Shown here: positions 19,881 through 27,962 of the stretch, piece by piece
Layout: every line of letters starts with the position of its first letter
Position numbering within the stretch: the stretch's first letter is position 1
DNA from: Hysterangium stoloniferum
Taxonomy: Eukaryota > Basidiomycota > Agaricomycetes > Hysterangiales > Hysterangiaceae
Direction of reading: 5' to 3'
NCBI GenBank assembly: GCA_015178975.1
Contig: WHVD01000116.1
Coordinates: forward strand, 62,001-126,000
DNA: 64,000 nt
Program-made: the position numbers and the translations under genes
Notes under the pieces: generated by a model
Database searches by the model: none
What the model was told of the DNA's origin: nothing
Seen by the model: only the letters and a program-made list of their open reading frames with translations

Positions 19881-20291
19881 TCTACATTTTCATTGTCCGC
19901 ATACTGCTCCACAGACTGCCATGCTGCACATTTGTGGGGGACAGCGCAAGCGTGGTCCCTGGGCCCGACGGGTGCTGGTACGACTGGCGCGTCGTCAACG
20001 TGTGCGGGTGATGCGAGCCAGTATACGACATGTGGTGCGAGTCACACGCCTCCCCGTGAGAAATGGCCCGGCCCCACCTGATCCGCCCCCCGCTGCACCA
20101 CTTGAGCTGGTCGTGGTGGTTCTCGGTGAGCCCCCAGGGCCCTGCGGGAAAAACGGCTCCGTAGCGTCCCAAGCCCCAGTGTGCCACCCCCACCCCCTCT
20201 GCCACTGCCGCCCCTACTCCAGTTCCCTGCACCACTGCCGCCGCTCCTGCCCAGGCTGCCGTATCTGCTCCTGCCGTTCCCCGCAGTGCCG

Positions 20292-21182
20292 CTACCAAGC
20301 CCAGGCAGGAAGCCCCCAAAGTCCGTGCTCGAGCTGGTCCCGTCGGACCAGTTCTGCGCATGGTATGGGGGTGCGTGCCGCCGTGCGCGATCGCGTGCAG
20401 CGTGTCGTAGGCCCATTCCCGTGTCCATGTCCATCACTGCCGCCACCATGCAGCCCATGCCCGTGCCCGTGCCCATGTCCCTGTCCATGGTCGTGTGGCC
20501 CATACCCGTGTCCTTGCGGCCTGTGGGGCCGGTGACTGCCGTGCGTGTGCCCCAGCTTGGGAAAGGCGGGGTGCCATGTCACGGCAGGGGGGAAGTGGTT
20601 GTCGGGGTCTGCGTGGACGGTGGGTCCATTCAGCGCGGGCACGGCATCGGCGTAGTGGCTGCTGCTGGAGTAGTAGGCCGTGGCGAGCCCGTAGGGGAGG
20701 TGGTAGGGTGTGCCATCAATGGGGGAGACGCTGTCAAACTCATCGGCGGGGCAGTCATGTGGTGAGATGGAGGTGTCATAGGGCGAGGCATCGGTGCGGC
20801 GCTTCTTGCAGCTGTTGTTGGGGCAGGGGCGGTAGATGCGGTAGTGCTCTGCATGAGGTTTCCGGTGGGCGGGTGGGATATGTGGGATAACAATGGGGGG
20901 GCGGACTACCAGGTTGGGTTTGAGCGCGCCAAGGGAGAGAGGGCGGGGGACCTGCGGCTGGGGGCTGGAGAAAGCGAGTGTCACGGTCACTGTTGTGGAC
21001 GACAGGCAACATAAACTCCCCCCGTGGAGGCTGAGAAGTCTCCCCCACACACTCCGTGACTCTGACTCAGATGCCGACTTTGACAATGATTCGTTAACGG
21101 GCAAGGACAAGGACAAGTTGTCCCCGGCAGAACCGGAACCCACGCTCGCCTCGCCTCTCGCTGCACGGTATGATTTCCACAC
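20292..21182 (-). CDS. Uncharacterised GC-rich gene, His/Gly-rich protein (longer copy)
   Basis: A 296-codon frame starts at the ATG at 21182. The N-terminus is Ser-rich. The middle contains IYRPCPNNSCKKRRTDASPY, DEFDSVSPIDGTPYHLPYGL and ATAYYSSSSHYADAVPAL. The C-terminal part is a GHGHGHG-rich tract. The segment 27318-27962 keeps the same frame and nearly the same protein, with changes that are mostly conservative. This supports translation in this frame. A second open minus-strand frame (20503-20042, with APPYHAQNWSDG and DFGGFLPGLGSG) follows the His/Gly tract. It may be a downstream exon. The base composition is far richer in G+C than the surroundings, and minisatellites flank it on both sides. 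Function is unknown. It could be a captured host gene. Confidence 0.5.
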   Translation of the reverse strand: MWKSYRAARGEASVGSGSAGDNLSLSLPVNESLSKSASESESRSVWGRLLSLHGGSLCCLSSTTVTVTLAFSSPQPQVPRPLSLGALKPNLVVRPPIVIPHIPPAHRKPHAEHYRIYRPCPNNSCKKRRTDASPYDTSISPHDCPADEFDSVSPIDGTPYHLPYGLATAYYSSSSHYADAVPALNGPTVHADPDNHFPPAVTWHPAFPKLGHTHGSHRPHRPQGHGYGPHDHGQGHGHGHGHGLHGGGSDGHGHGNGPTTRCTRSRTAARTPIPCAELVRRDQLEHGLWGLPAWAW

Positions 21183-21240
21183 TAGCTTGAAGGGAAATAC
21201 AACATGGACATCTTGAGCCCAAGTTTGGGACCCACCCCCG

Positions 21241-22020
21241 CACCCAAAAAGTCACAAAGAGTCTACATGAGTCACAAAGAGTCTATAACAGTTGCAAAGA
21301 GTCTATAACAGTTGTAACAAGTCTATAAGAGTTGCAAAAAGTCCAAAAGAGTCGCAAACAGTCCAAAAGAGTCGCAAACAGTCCAAAAGAGTCGCAAACA
21401 GTCTATCAGAATTGCAAACAGTCACAAATAATCACAAAGAGTCTAGAATAGATAGTTGCAAAAACTCTAAATTGGGAGGATTGAGTGCAATTCCCAAATA
21501 TTCGAGAGGCTACAGTGGGATTCATTGCGACTCTTTTAGACTTTTTGTGACTCTTTTAGACTTTTTGCAACTCTTTTAGACTCTTTTAGATTGTTTGTGG
21601 CTCTTTTAGTCAAAGTGTCGCAAAAAGTCACACAAAGTCGCAAAGTGTCACACAAAGTTGCAAAGTGTCACACAAAGTTGCAAAGTGTCACACAAAGTTG
21701 CAAAGTGTCACACAAAGTTGCAAAGTGTCACACAAAGTTGCAAAGTGTCACACAAAGTTGCAAAGTGTCACAAAAAGTCACAAAGTCCCACGAAGTCACA
21801 AAATGTCAAGTCGCCAAAAGTCGCAAAAAGTCACAAGAGTTCAAAAAGTCACAGAGTCACACAAAGTCTCAAAGTGTCATGAAAAGTTGCAAAGTGTCAC
21901 ACTACAAAAAGTCGCAAAGTCGCACAAAGTCGCAAAGTCACAAAAAGTCACCGAGTTCAAACAGTCACAGAGTCACACAAAGTCTCAAAAGTCACAAAGA
22001 GTCACAAAAATTCATATCAC
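21241..22020. repeat. Minisatellite arrays with polarity switches
   Basis: From 21245 to 21440 the unit is AAAGAGTCTATAACAGTTGC-like, the reverse complement of the 18840 unit. Around 21525-21610 the forward GACTCTTTTAGACTTTTTG unit returns. From 21610 to 21780 there are about seven near-perfect 20-base copies of GTCACACAAAGTTGCAAAGT. Looser AAAGTCACAAAGTC units continue to 22020. Frames through it encode only repetitive K/S/V/T peptides and are not genes. Confidence 0.93.
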
Positions 22021-22539
22021 ACACCTCCAGCATTGACTGACTATCTCAGACTGACAATTAAAGAGAGCTGCATGGTTGGGTAAGGTACCGTGTCCCAACT
22101 GTATCAGGTCTATTTTCTTTTTGAATTTTGAATTTTGAATTTAGGTTTGAGATTAGCGCTAGTGCCATGGGGATACGTCAGCCCCATGCTTGCCATTTTG
22201 GGTAAGCCAGCCATTCCCAGCCAGGTCAAGTTCAACGAAAAGAACCTGTACACTGGTCAGGTCCCCCCCCAGTGTAGATCCATATGTCCCACTGCACTCA
22301 CTGCCATTAAATACATGAAACACATTACTGCAGTAACTGTAATTTGGCAGTTTAAAATAAAATTAGGGAATTTACTAGTACTTTCTACAAAATTCGGAGC
22401 CTAAAAATTAAATTATGTGATAGTAAATATATATGTAATTTGTAGGTTCAATGAGCTTATAAATTTTAGGGCCCCATTTACCTGAAGGTATGTTCTCATA
22501 CTATATTATGCAACACTGTCGAATTTGCCATTTACTGAT

Positions 22540-24726
22540 AGATATAGGTGATCTTGCAGAATTCCTGACTCAGCGTACATTAGACTTTGAAGAGACTGCA
22601 TCGAAGCATCGTTTGCATAAGCCACTGCCCCCAAATGATAGCCTTCTCAAAGGATATGAAGTGTGCGAGAAGACTCGGGCTTTGAAAAAGCAAAAAAGAG
22701 GAAATAATTAATATTAGATATTCACTTGCTCAGATCATCCTGGGCAAAAATAAACCTGTACAGGTTTGTATATTTAGTTGTATTTTTCATATTAAGATTA
22801 AATAATTGTCTGGTGACTGCAGATTTCACTACCAATGCAGAAAGAGCCTTTTGATGTACAGGATGATGCTAATGAAGTTATTGACAAAATCCTGTCAAAT
22901 GGGAAAAATTATTATGATCACTACAGTAACTGTGATATTAAATTGATATGGGACCGGTAAGGATATTATTTATACATGAAAAAACTGCACTAATTTATTG
23001 TGTAGGGAAAGAGTTATTTTCATTGTTGTAAATGGAACAAACTTGCAGGACCATAACTTTGTGGATGTTGATGTGATAAAAGCTTGGTGGGAAAAGCATT
23101 GGTGAATGGCGGACAGATCTAATAAATTGAGACTTCCTTTCAGTTAAAGATGTCAAGAAAAATGATCTCACACTTCAATTACGATTGCATGAAGATATGC
23201 CCATAGTGAGTCATTGTGATTGAATTGCAGTTACAGTTATATTTATATAAATCACAGATCAGTGACGAAGAGCTAAATACTAGTGGTAGAATGGATAATA
23301 ATAAGAAAATAACTAGAGCAAATGGTATTAGAAGCCTTAGCAAGCCTTGGAGCGAAGTGTAAGAATGCCTCTTCCGAAAAGGGTCAGTTTTGAATTTTTA
23401 CATATATTTGTATATTTTATTATGCTTATAAATTAATCTAAAGAAGCAGGTACAATGGATAATACATGGCCTAACAAACATTATATCAGTGCATATATTA
23501 GCCGCTATGCAACTGTAAATGTGGTATACATGGCCTATAAATTCCAAAGGATTAAAGTATCAGTCAATCCATGTACTTGTGACATTGAGATTACAGAAAG
23601 TGACGACATGGAGACAGTTCTTGTACAGAAGAATTGGCGAGAGCACATAGGATGTGGTGGACGGAGGGGTGGATATTTGGGCTATGGACTTTATAAATAT
23701 GCTTTTGAGGTATGCTTAAATCATACATATCATGTGGTGTGATATATAACAGTTTCTTTCATTCACAGGGAAAAATCCAAGAAAAAGATTTTACACTCTT
23801 CGAGTGGAAGGAAGTTTGTTGCCAGTTCAACAAGGAGAATTTCAACAAGTTGGGATCAGAATTGGTACTTTTAGCCTGGGGTGAATACTTTGCTGAGTCG
23901 TTCAATGAACGGATTAGATCTAGCGGTGTCAAAAATATACCTAGTGAGTTAAATTCTCAACAATAATAAATTAAGATTAATCTTTAATGGTTTAAATTAC
24001 AATCTTTAATGGTTTAAATTACAGTGCTTAGGTGGAATACAAAGGATACTTTCATTGGGAAATTGGTAGATGAAGTAAAAGACGCTACAGATTCATCTCA
24101 AAATTCTAGCCCGGTTGAGCCCAGTATATGATGGAATGCATTCCTGGCAGCACCATTGCTACCCAAGCCAACACGAGAGGCCAAATTCTCTGGGAATGAA
24201 CAGGCTGGAAGTAACACAGATAGGCTTGGGATGTGGCTTGGGATGTGTGTTGATGCTTTTGCCCATCACACTGTGATTGATTCTGTTGGTGAGTTTTTAT
24301 TTGCTGACTTGCAAGGTAAGTCCTAATGTAATTTGAAATGATTGTTATTCACCGCTGAATTTGTAGGATTTATCTATGGAAATAATACGGTGGTCCTATT
24401 TGACCCTCAAGCACACAGGTACATATTTTCCGATAGTCTTATCAATAGATATACTAATATGATTCTGAAGTTTTGATCAAACAAGTGGTCCATGGGATAA
24501 AGGTGCGCATGCTATCCAGAATTTCCTCAATACACACAAATGCAATGATATTTGTCATAGCATTGGGCTTGATAATATCCGTGTCAAAGTCCCTCCTCCC
24601 CAGAAAAGGGATATGGATTGTCATAGAGTTGGTACAACATGCCCTCAAGGCTCATCTACCTTCGAAAAGCTTATCTCCCCTGTGTATGAGGAAGCTGCGC
24701 AACAGGCAGCCATTGATCTTGATTGA
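22540..24726 (+). pseudogene. Alpha-kinase (MHCK/EF2K family) gene inside the TIR element, one premature stop
   Basis: Alpha-kinases are atypical Ser/Thr kinases. Upstream exons give an uncharacterised N-terminus (EFLTQRTLDFEETASKHRLH at about 22560). The kinase exons are 23449-23709, 23769-23943, 24025-24315, 24367-24418 and 24486-24726, with clean GT..AG introns and matching phases. Blocks seen: GGRRGGYLGYGLYKYAFEGKI (N-lobe), LVLLAWGEYFAESFNERI, MLRWNTKDTFIGKLVDE, AAPLLPKPTREAKFSGN-type residues, then FAHHTVIDSVGEFLFADLQG with the diagnostic DLQG, and VVLFDPQAH. The last exon ends with the zinc module HSGPWDKGAHAIQNFL, HKCNDICHSIGL. A TGA at 24129-24131 (before WNAF, probably from CGA) interrupts it, so this copy is likely inactive. 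N-terminal exon borders are uncertain. Confidence 0.8.
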
Positions 24727-24845
24727 TTGAACAGAATTTTAGCTATTTTCTTGATCTTCAAAGCATAAAACTTAACTCCCATTTACAACATCTATTAGAA
24801 TATGCATTTATAATAAAAGTAGTTTTGATTTTTTCTTTTTAATAA

Positions 24846-26283
24846 TTACATGTGTGGCAACATTGCCTCAAAAACGGCCCAGACATTGTGCAGATTTAAC
24901 TCATTGACATGTAATGTCTCATATACTTTGGCCGCATGCTTTTCATATTCAACACTCACAAACCGCAAAAGGTTCTCCCCTCCTAGCTCTTCCTTCAACC
25001 GACAGACTATATCCCGATCTACAGGGTGCAAGAGATTGTCAGCACCAAGATCTTTATATGTAGCGAGTGCAACGTTAGGTGACATCCCAGATGGCAGAAT
25101 CTTACGCTTGTCCTTCCGAACCCGATGGTTATTAAACTGGTCCCGTAACTGGTCCAGCTCCTGTTGAATGAGCTTTGGCCATAACCAGCATACCAATTCA
25201 CTGTGATGTATCAGTACTAATAGTAAGATTATGAAGGGGAAATGACTTACTGGTGGTGTACATTCATTGGATTATAAATGGGAATGATCAAACATCAGTA
25301 GAAAAGTATAAGATATATATAGATATTACGGTACCTTAAAGCATTTGCGATACCAAACACTCTGCCAGTCTCACTCCCACAGTCTGTTGTTGTCTGAACA
25401 GGCATACCTGTATTCACTCAGTACCAGGAAGGTCAAAAGGCAAAAGACTTACTGCCCATCTTCTCAATCAAGCTTAGATATAAATATGCGATGGCTATCT
25501 TCAAGCGATTGTTTGGGAGCACCCAAATCCCCAACCATGCCCCTGACCATACGTCTCGTATTGCCCAAAGTGGGAAACCGATTGCCGCTAGTTTATCATG
25601 ACCATCCCCACTCCATTCTTGATGAGGGCCTAACAGGATGAGCGGCGAACGGTTTATTTTTCTCATGCCAGGTTGTCTAATCACAAAGCCGGCTGGGTCT
25701 TGAAGTCGCATAGTTGATGTAACAAAACTCCTAAGAATAGTTATCAATTAAAAACATGAAGTGAATCGCAATATATGTACTTACCTTGTCAAGTTAATCC
25801 CAGTCCTTGCAGCCATTGCTTCCTTCACCACCCGTGGTCCTTGTTGACTTGTAGGATCCTGAGCCATTTGGTCGAGAACAAGCTGCTGCTTCACAGTATT
25901 CGGAAGATGCTTTGTTGTAGCCACACTACCTTGTAAGCCAAGCTGAGTATGACAGCGAGCAATAGTTGCTTCACTAATAAAAGTAAAAACTGAGGATCAA
26001 AAATATAGAGCATGAAAGAAATAGACATACCTTATCTGGATCCCATACTCTGCAAGAAATAGCTTGCTGAGTTCTTTACGGTTGGTAATGCCACGTCGGT
26101 GGTATTCAATAATACATTGCTTTATGTTTTCATCGTCAGAGGATGCTATGAGTAGTTATTTGAAAGAAAAAAATTAACAGTGATTATATCACAAAGACAG
26201 TGGAAGATAACTCACGGCAGTGCCTGTATTGATTGGATCCCATAGGATTGCAATTGTAGTGCATGCTAGGCTGAGATTGCATA
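24846..26283 (-). pseudogene. DDE integrase-core (rve-type) transposase gene of the TIR element
   Basis: Exons on the minus strand are: a short first exon near 26283-26216, then 26145-26031, 25973-25785, 25730-25453, 25407-25335 and 25200-24846. Introns have GT..AG and phases that join well (IQI|SEATIARCH, LTR|SFVTSTM, MGS|MPVQTTTDCGSE). The order is an HTH-like start (CIIEYHRRGITNRKELSKL), a second HTH (TIARCHTQLGLQGS), LVLDQMAQDP, and then the catalytic core: GPHQEWSGDGHDKL with the first Asp, TTTDCGSETGRV with the second Asp, and the C-terminal ELVCWLWPKLIQQELDQLR. In this mushroom family 60-70 residues with the catalytic Glu normally lie between ANALR and the WLWPKLI block. Here they are replaced by an intron-like 134-base gap. 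The copy is probably inactive. It shares only the element, not a promoter, with the kinase. Confidence 0.82.
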
Positions 26284-26319
26284 GATTCGGTATCTGGCAT
26301 CACCAGTGATATTGAGCAG

Positions 26320-26540
26320 CGGCAATGATGATAGTGAGCAGCGGTGGAGATGATAGTGAGGGGCCACGATGGCAATATTGGACAGCGGCAGTGATGGTGC
26401 AGCAGTGGAGATGATAGTAATGGGCCACAATGGCAATATTGGATGGTGGCAGTAATGATAGTGAGCAGCGGTGGAGATGATAGTGAGGGGCCACAACGGC
26501 AATAGTGGACAGTGGCAGCGAGAGCGACAATGATAGTGAG
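26320..26540. repeat. 62-66-bp minisatellite near the right end of the TIR element
   Basis: Three to four units of GAGCAGCGGTGGAGATGATA, followed by GTGAGGGGCCACRAYGGCAA, start at about 26336, 26398 and 26463. They lie between the right TIR and the first exon of the transposase gene. Confidence 0.85.
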
Positions 26541-26703
26541 TGACGATGAGGAGCAATAGTTGTGAAGACTTCCCCAAAACGGGCAGTTAGGGCTGACCGT
26601 AACATAGCTGACACATCTGCTTGGCACTCTTGAAACGCTAATCTCGAACCACAAATTCAAAATTCAAAAGAGAAAATAGACCTGATACAGTTGGGACACC
26701 GTA

Positions 26704-27225
26704 GTAAGGGGAGAGTGTTAGCTCTCCATGTGTGCATGGGAAGACTCACCGCTCGGGAGGGCAGGCATTCATGATGCATTTACAGCTCTCGTTTTGTGCA
26801 ATCCGAAACTATGACAAAATACTACACACAGAGGAAGTAACATTACTACCATTACCTAAAGTAAGAGGGTAGGGTGGGTGGGTAAAACTAAATTGTAAAG
26901 AATGTAGAGAAAACTCAGATGAAGAATTGCGAAACAAGAACGGACAGTGTATCAATGACGTTGTCATACAGGGAGAAAAGGCGTGAGAGTCCTATATACA
27001 CTCAGCTGAACATTGAGTGCCAAACTAATCCCGGCAGGCTAGGGATCATGTGGCACTTGACACTAAAACCCCAGTATCACCAAGTGATAGTTCCCCAGTC
27101 AAAAAACTGGCAAAATATTTCTGCTGTGAAAGCTGGCTCTCTGAGATGGACTCTGATGAACATGGGGAGCTAGAGTACTCCACCTGGCAGGTATGATTTT
27201 AGTCATACTGACACTATTGCATGGT
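26704..27225. other. No gene recognised
   Basis: Flanking sequence right of the TIR element. No supported feature is seen. Confidence 0.4.
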
Positions 27226-27317: not shown

Positions 27318-27962
27318 ACTCCAAGTACCCCGATACATCTACCGCCCCCGCCCCAACAACAGCTGCAAGAAGCGCTGCACCGATGCCTCGCCCTACGACA
27401 CCTCCATCTCACCGCACGACTTCCCCGCCGATGAGTTCAGCAGCGTCTCCCCCGTCGATAGCACACCCTACCGCCTCCCCTATGGGCTCGCCACGGCCTA
27501 CTACTCCAGCAGCAGCCACTACGCCGATGCCGTGCCCGCACTGAACAGGCCCGCCATCCACGCGGACCCCGACAACCACTTCCCCCCCGCCGCGACATGG
27601 CACCCCGCCTTTCCCAAGCTGGGGCACACGCATGGCGGTCACCGGCCCCACGGGCCGCAAGGAAACGGGTACGGGCCGCAAGGACACGGGTATGGGCCGC
27701 ACGGCCATGGACAGGGACATGGGCACGGGCCACACGGTGGTGGCAGTGATGGACATGGACACGGGAACGGGCCTACGACACACTGCATGCAATCGCACAC
27801 GGCGGCGCGCACCCCCATACCACGTGCAGAACTGGTCTGACAAGACCAGCTCGAGCGCAGACTTTGGGGGCTTCCCGCCTGGGCTTGGTAGTGGCGCCGT
27901 GGGGAACGGCGGGAGCAGATATGGCAGGAGCGGTGGCAGTGGTGTGGGGAACAGGAGTTCTG
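27318..27962 (+). pseudogene. Partial second copy of the GC-rich His/Gly-rich gene
   Basis: From about 27330 the sequence encodes IYRPRPNNSCKKRCTDASPY, DEFSSVSPVDSTPYRLPYGL, ATAYYSSSSHYADAVPAL, a GPHGHGQGHGHG tract and an end in TPIPRAELV. It aligns in frame with the gene at 20292-21182 but lacks its first about 110 residues and its downstream part. Homology stops abruptly at about 27962. It lies in the opposite orientation to the first copy and 6.5 kb away. Composition and the adjoining minisatellite are shared with that copy. Confidence 0.6.

Follow-up and report, generated by a model that had tools for sequence, protein, structure and literature searches.

Does a kinase gene that lies inside a DNA transposon belong to the transposon, or was it trapped there by chance? 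The question is raised by a stretch of 64,000 nucleotides (nt) of the genome of the false-truffle fungus Hysterangium stoloniferum (contig WHVD01000116.1, positions 62,001 to 126,000; hereafter, the window), in which a pair of terminal inverted repeats (TIRs) encloses a multi-exon alpha-kinase-like gene on the plus strand and an integrase-like transposase gene on the minus strand, arranged tail to tail. An initial annotation of the window had described this arrangement, and it is borne out by a match of the kinase to Pfam family PF02816 and by TIR arms of 52 nt. Our analysis indicates that the element is very probably a DDE (Asp-Asp-Glu) cut-and-paste transposon of superfamily IS3EU with a fixed two-gene layout, that its kinase gene is co-mobile and co-inherited with the transposase and is under purifying selection, and that inserted copies subsequently decay, chiefly through CpG-to-TpG change; the copy in the window is dead.

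Results

Kinase and Transposase Occur Together in the Genome

The H. stoloniferum genome was searched over 111 Mb in 554 contigs; since only the best candidates were scored, each locus count is a minimum, and the lack of a kinase match does not prove that the gene is absent. TIR-bounded elements were taken as inverted TIR pairs 0.2-10 kb apart; where C180, C290, and C301 offered alternative ends, these were not counted separately. This gave 16 distinct elements, nine long and seven short. Matches to both the kinase and the transposase, tail to tail, were present in all nine long elements (4.6-7.3 kb), so that the several insertions with both genes inside the same TIRs that the initial annotation had anticipated do exist. 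None of the 16 TIR pairs held a complete transposase but no kinase. Neighbor counts, based on 52 places from 147 listed rows, showed a transposase match within 3.3 kb of 18 of the 22 kinase loci; the fraction of the genome lying within 10 kb of one is 0.8%. Four of the 22 loci had no transposase match within 10 kb. Locus C256 belongs to the C68a insertion and lies at a contig end; at C111, the transposase has been lost from between the right TIR and the kinase; and the kinase loci at C301 and C58:188955, which are 12 and 43 kb from a transposase, are small fragments. When the genome was searched with PF02816 itself, nine of ten matches lay within 3.3 kb of a transposase match, and the tenth (C146) was a different alpha-kinase; none of 14 control genomes gave a PF02816 match. 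These counts agree with the earlier proposal that the transposon carries the kinase and multiplies it by transposition.

Two loci have a right TIR but no kinase match: at C535, the full set of six transposase pieces is present and a left TIR is absent from 8.5 kb of sequence, and C107 has transposase pieces a-c. Both were read as truncated copies. Loci C68a, C68b, and C256 share their flanks and therefore represent one insertion that was duplicated. Loci L031 and L032 (C512:416000-420000, C517:123000-127000), which contain transposase pieces a-c only, were considered as independent transposase-only elements and rejected as such; their sequences agree at 99.4% over 4 kb, flanks included, and they represent a duplicated composite fragment with a truncated IS3EU end. 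By eye, L031 contains further stretches resembling a Copia reverse transcriptase and a CK1-like kinase, and similar transposase fragments on other contigs may be further composite copies. At C180:63670-77207, two elements are adjacent and one adjoins an end of a third IS3EU remnant, a layout suggestive of elements inserting into their relatives. The TIR ends at L023 (C1:1388845) and L028 (C121:86245) lie on separate contigs with a nearly identical flank, and hence appear to be a single insertion within a region that was duplicated.

Both Genes Diverge in Step and Under Constraint

A codon-wise comparison of exon pieces covered 11 of 20 units and pairs of at least 60 codons, and omega (the ratio of non-synonymous to synonymous divergence) was estimated by a simple counting method that ignores the CpG bias of the copies. 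The units fell into three subfamilies: A (window, C68a, C74, C180-1), A2 (C180-2, C203, C90, C486a, C111), and B (C486b, C532). Between A and A2, omega was 0.19-0.53 for the kinase and 0.13-0.38 for the transposase; between all others and B it was about 0.17 (0.14-0.24) and about 0.10 (0.06-0.18), respectively. Synonymous divergence (dS) from B was similar for both genes (kinase, 0.59-0.85; transposase, 0.73-1.13), and bootstraps never reached an omega of 1 in 14 comparisons. In eight of the 11 units, kinase and transposase distances were correlated with r = 0.996, a value matched by 26 of 40320 relabelings. These ratios indicate that both genes are under purifying selection between subfamilies. 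Because the kinase diverges in step with the transposase and is under purifying selection, we regard it as a gene of the element rather than trapped cargo. Chance trapping, the outcome that the initial annotation had set against its own proposal, was rejected on the nine of nine long elements together with this co-divergence and selection.

Element Ends, Target Sites, and Surroundings

The ends of the window element, at first placed at 22088 and 26701, were corrected to those in Table 1. Its TIR arms are 85% complementary and, being longer than 30 bp, agree with those of IS3EU, and a perfect 6-bp target site duplication (TSD), GTAAGG, is present on both flanks. The outermost dinucleotide at each terminus of the two-TIR copies is TA, in keeping with the TA..TA ends of IS3EU. 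Their terminal 5-mers are mostly TACGG, TATGG, or TACAG; in the window element the left end is TACCG and the right end TACGG. A 27-nt TIR pattern (up to three mismatches) matched the genome 82 times and its reversed control not once, so the pattern is not a product of chance. Among the nine two-TIR copies, TSDs were exact in six (6 bp in the window; 5 bp in C74, C90, C180-2, C486b, and C532), had one mismatch in two (C68a, C203), and were absent from C180-1, the left end of which adjoins a remnant of another element.

Empty sites were sought for the window, C90, and C203 insertions by joining both flanks of the element as a query. The window query gave 59 matches (the best 40 of 258 candidates were scored), and all four retrieved sites (C19, C527, C9, C1) carried a single GTAGGG in unbroken sequence, one base different from the flanking GTAAGG. 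Two empty sites retrieved for C90 (C90:850331, C124:809930) hold a single CTAGG or TTAGG, and the C203 query gave no match spanning the joint. Thus, empty sites were found for two insertions as had been predicted, with a single 5- to 6-mer in place of the expected single TA. Since the TSD lies outside the TA and empty sites carry one 6-mer, TA is part of the element's own ends; a TA target duplication, as initially assumed, is ruled out by the 5-6-bp TSDs and the empty sites.

The flanks of the window insertion match many places in the genome, and the element therefore sits inside another repeat family. Some way outside the IS3EU copy, on either side of it, are long inverted repeats at 20256-20838 and 27336-27927 (354 nt, 91%; 228 nt, 86%), and window positions 21227-21990 consist of dense arrays with a 10-bp period and AGTCACAAAG-like units, some in inverted order.

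The Kinase-Like Gene

With its exon pieces joined and the stop omitted, the window kinase matched PF02816 with an E value of 6.6e-13 and 49.6 bits, against a curated cut-off of 21.3; this match and a whole-domain fold place it in the alpha-kinase fold family. The stop reported by the initial annotation is an in-frame TGA. At its position, nine of 11 other loci have a sense codon (CGA in six; CAA, CGC, and CAC in one each), and C180-2 and C111 also have TGA. A 12-bp tandem duplication is present near position 24209 of the window copy. Also missing from the window copy are about 331 bp with the code for two CxxC...CxxC pairs, which we take as the N-terminus of the kinase; the first pair is found in 12 other loci (cut short in one, with a stop in four) and the second in 11. 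Relatives of the encoded proteins occur in Ramaria, Gautieria, and Suillus, and a search of IMG/VR gave no confirmed relative of the kinase or of the transposase.

Alpha-kinases have a Lys and a Glu at the ATP site, metal-binding D and Q residues, and zinc ligands. The window kinase retains DLQG and HxCxxxC, and residues H336, H392, C394, C398, and Q352 are invariant in six kinase relatives, the D of DLQG being N in relative P0003. The strand expected from a general motif to carry the ATP-site Lys reads A[LIV]F in six of six relatives covering it, and the Glu of EPYLSG is Thr in relative P0128 aligned to the Entamoeba kinase 4kuj. The zinc module is kept, but since the usual ATP-site residues look replaced, catalytic activity of the alpha-kinase-like protein is doubtful. 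The statement of the initial annotation that the gene evolved as a real kinase is thus sound as to the motifs and questionable as to activity. A reading in which the protein is a pseudokinase, whose alpha-kinase fold would partner the transposase structurally or independently of nucleotide, is favored by these replacements and by the C146 kinase, which has no such transposase nearby and keeps VIVK and EEV. However, the Lys position is taken from that motif and from a model of low confidence in the N-lobe, MAFFT sets the VIVK of C146 against a different strand, and neither the zinc ligands nor the Q of DLQG vary among the six relatives; we judge the pseudokinase reading to fall somewhat short of an even chance.

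The Transposase Gene

The predicted transposase combines a helix-turn-helix (HTH) motif with an integrase core, and its stop codon lies 119 bp from that of the kinase. Relatives of the window transposase, including P0008, pass the cut-off of PF24764. The model of P0008 (predicted local distance difference test score [pLDDT] 88.6) resembles TnsB, retroviral integrases, IstA, and MuA, that is, a DDE/RNase H fold. Residues D162, D221, and E264 are invariant across 38 relatives and, by inference, would form the catalytic triad. About 154 bp are absent from the window copy, including an exon that specifies HNTTIERGW and, presumably, the third catalytic residue; this exon is present in 12 other loci, with D in place of E in one and stops inside the match in two. 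Owing to the kinase stop and the loss of the Cys-pair exons and of the presumed catalytic-Glu exon, the window copy is, as read from its sequence, dead for both genes. In at least one other copy the matched pieces of both genes are free of stops, although its last transposase piece is interrupted by an array of 24-bp units; in the C486 copy (L029 3153-3508), a 24-bp unit is repeated about a dozen times inside the last transposase piece.

Table 1. Coordinates of the IS3EU-type element in the window, its parts, and short derivatives elsewhere in the genome.
Feature	Position	Strand	Remarks
Whole IS3EU-type element, decayed	22086..26703	.	4618 bp; TIRs, TSD, other genomic copies
Left TIR	22086..22137	+	Starts TACCGTGTCCC; 52-nt arm
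Right TIR	26652..26703	-	Ends GGGACACCGTA; 52-nt arm
TSD, left copy GTAAGG	22080..22085	.	Read in sequence; GTAGGG single in empty sites
TSD, right copy GTAAGG	26704..26709	.	Read in sequence
Alpha-kinase-like gene	22817..24726	+	Seven exon pieces recognized (predicted; pieces matched in other copies)
Kinase exon pieces, first four	22817-22957, 23458-23709, 23769-23942, 24027-24128	+	Predicted
Kinase exon pieces, last three	24132-24314, 24369-24416, open frame 24469-24723	+	Predicted; open frame matched at 24481-24603
Premature TGA in kinase	24129..24131	+	In frame
Deletion point, ~331 bp of other copies absent	22446..22447	.	Two CxxC...CxxC pairs, read as kinase N-terminus
IS3EU-type transposase, HTH + integrase core	24849..26155	-	Predicted pieces; relatives with PF24764; fold of P0008
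Transposase pieces	26155-26033, 25975-25784, 25729-25454, 25408-25334, 25205-24858	-	Predicted
Deletion point, ~154 bp of other copies absent	25280..25281	-	Exon with HNTTIERGW, presumed third catalytic residue
Short TIR-bounded derivatives	C179:468211-469544, C507:112339-113692, C523:151551-152916, C301:623052-624561, C548:246089-248159		1.3-2.1 kb; match only N-terminal part of transposase

Relation to Known IS3EU Elements

In its termini and gene order the element agrees with superfamily IS3EU, as does the window copy in its 6-bp duplication. In general, IS3EU elements have TA..TA ends and usually a 6-bp TSD (PMC10045372), and the Pucciniales families have a 6-bp TSD, ends TAYGG..CCRTA, and TIRs longer than 30 bp (PMC12730594). 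The initial annotation knew of no description of the kinase-transposase pairing; it is already in print, since in IS3EU of rusts and Tuber, including Tuber indicum, an alpha-kinase gene that opposes the transposase, with a TET/JBP gene between the two, is reported by Kojima (2025; PMC12730594). The Hysterangium element shares with these TET-bearing elements the opposed genes and, with those of Pucciniales, the TIR length and termini; the 6-bp TSD of Pucciniales is seen in the window copy, whereas most copies have a 5-bp TSD. It differs in having no TET/JBP gene in the short interval between its stop codons and in its host, a member of Phallomycetidae. A search of the genome with PF12851 (TET/JBP) gave no match, but the controls were equally silent.

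IS3EU/GingerRoot is similar in its TA..TA termini, usual 6-bp TSD, and DDD/E integrase-like core, and the word kinase is absent from the main text of PMC10045372. Styx of Zymoseptoria is likewise a fungal TIR element with extra coding sequences, linked to IS3EU by its authors, and its second ancestral protein is not called a kinase in the available portion of PMC10853768. Compared with the alpha-kinases TRPM7, MHCK A, eEF2K, ALPK1, and Entamoeba 4kuj, the Hysterangium element family has N-terminal Cys pairs, and the usual ATP-site Lys and Glu appear replaced. Within the part of the literature covered by our search, we found no kinase-bearing IS3EU without TET in Agaricomycetes and no selection test on the kinase.

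CpG Decay of Copies

In the four A copies, C-to-T or G-to-A singletons occurred at 70 of 150 CpG positions and at 39 of 1623 other C/G positions, a pattern that fits methylation-driven mutation. The CpG observed/expected ratio was 0.40-0.52 in the elements and 0.47 in the whole window. Decay mainly at CpG is as expected for methylated elements, and Kojima proposes escape from silencing for the TET/JBP genes of fungal transposons, including IS3EU (PMC12730594). Both points are in line with a kinase-like protein that counters silencing by acting on host methylation or chromatin, as a counterpart of the IS3EU TET/JBP gene. We consider this unlikely, given that CpG depletion of the elements is no stronger than that of the whole window, and that TET-bearing elements also keep the kinase, so that the two genes are not simple substitutes.

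Discussion

We interpret the Hysterangium element as an IS3EU transposon in which the kinase is one of two resident genes. Several of our results pull in the other direction. Within subfamilies, the omega values of kinase and transposase were, respectively, 0.36-1.02 and 0.78-1.83 in A, 0.32-1.20 and 0.72-1.42 in A2, and 0.58 and 0.79 in B, values as for decaying copies. A kinase match was absent from seven of the 16 TIR pairs, all of them short (0.4-2.1 kb), five with a transposase fragment and two with neither gene matched; the initial annotation would have counted against itself homologous TIRs that enclose only the transposase, and none of these pairs encloses a complete transposase alone. 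The kinase is therefore not needed in cis. No kinase match lay within 10 kb of 29 of the 46 transposase clusters, several of these 29 being tiny matches. Five of the six exact TSDs are 5 bp, whereas IS3EU usually has 6. The window transposase matched PF24764 with an E value of 0.055, under the Pfam cut-off; the transposase profile, compared by sequence with solved structures, gave nothing better than E 0.74; and the model of P0002 is weak overall (mean pLDDT 53.5).

The short derivatives without a kinase match, the stops in many copies, and the captured genes, such as TET/JBP, of other DNA transposon superfamilies (PMC12730594) could also be explained if the kinase were a passenger, captured once from the host and copied along with no function for the element, but this is very improbable, as omega is well below 1, the kinase is under purifying selection between subfamilies at a dS of about 0.75 and is present in nine of nine long elements, and the same pairing is published for rusts and Tuber, a distribution not accounted for by one recent capture.

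In our reading, a full-length copy of the IS3EU element has a kinase-like gene that starts with two Cys-pair (zinc-finger-like) motifs and, facing it from the minus strand, a transposase that probably acts at the TIRs like other DDE enzymes. Insertion generates a short target duplication; both genes move together, and copies decay afterwards. The kinase-like protein may work in trans to the benefit of the element: it could bind or modify the transposase, or else a host factor in control of transposition or silencing. For and against this proposal we see about equal weight. Such a helper could act by phosphorylation if it binds ATP and as a scaffold if it does not; in view of the CpG decay and of the TET genes that relatives carry, its role may also be related to silencing. 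A helper acting in trans would account for a conserved kinase and for short derivatives without it that could still move. The counter-silencing and pseudokinase readings concern this helper role and are compatible with it.

Alpha-kinases are reported as highly expanded in rusts (PMC4469406), and PF02816 appears in a published domain table (PMC5295586). As nine of ten alpha-kinase matches in H. stoloniferum adjoin an IS3EU-type transposase, alpha-kinase counts can amount to a measure of how many transposon copies are present. There is good, direct evidence that the kinase belongs to the element; catalysis is in doubt. Our data show a kinase that is under selection and diverges in step with the transposase in an element without a TET gene, which separates the role of the kinase from the counter-silencing idea for TET/JBP and makes both testable. 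More tentatively, and with the balance of probability against it, the transposase and the Cys-pair/alpha-kinase-like gene may be an ancient, obligate IS3EU core across Dikarya, the lineage-specific alpha-kinase "expansions" of rusts and some mushrooms may largely be IS3EU copies, and the kinase-like protein may be a transposition accessory factor with an altered ATP site. If so, it would represent a new kind of transposon helper.

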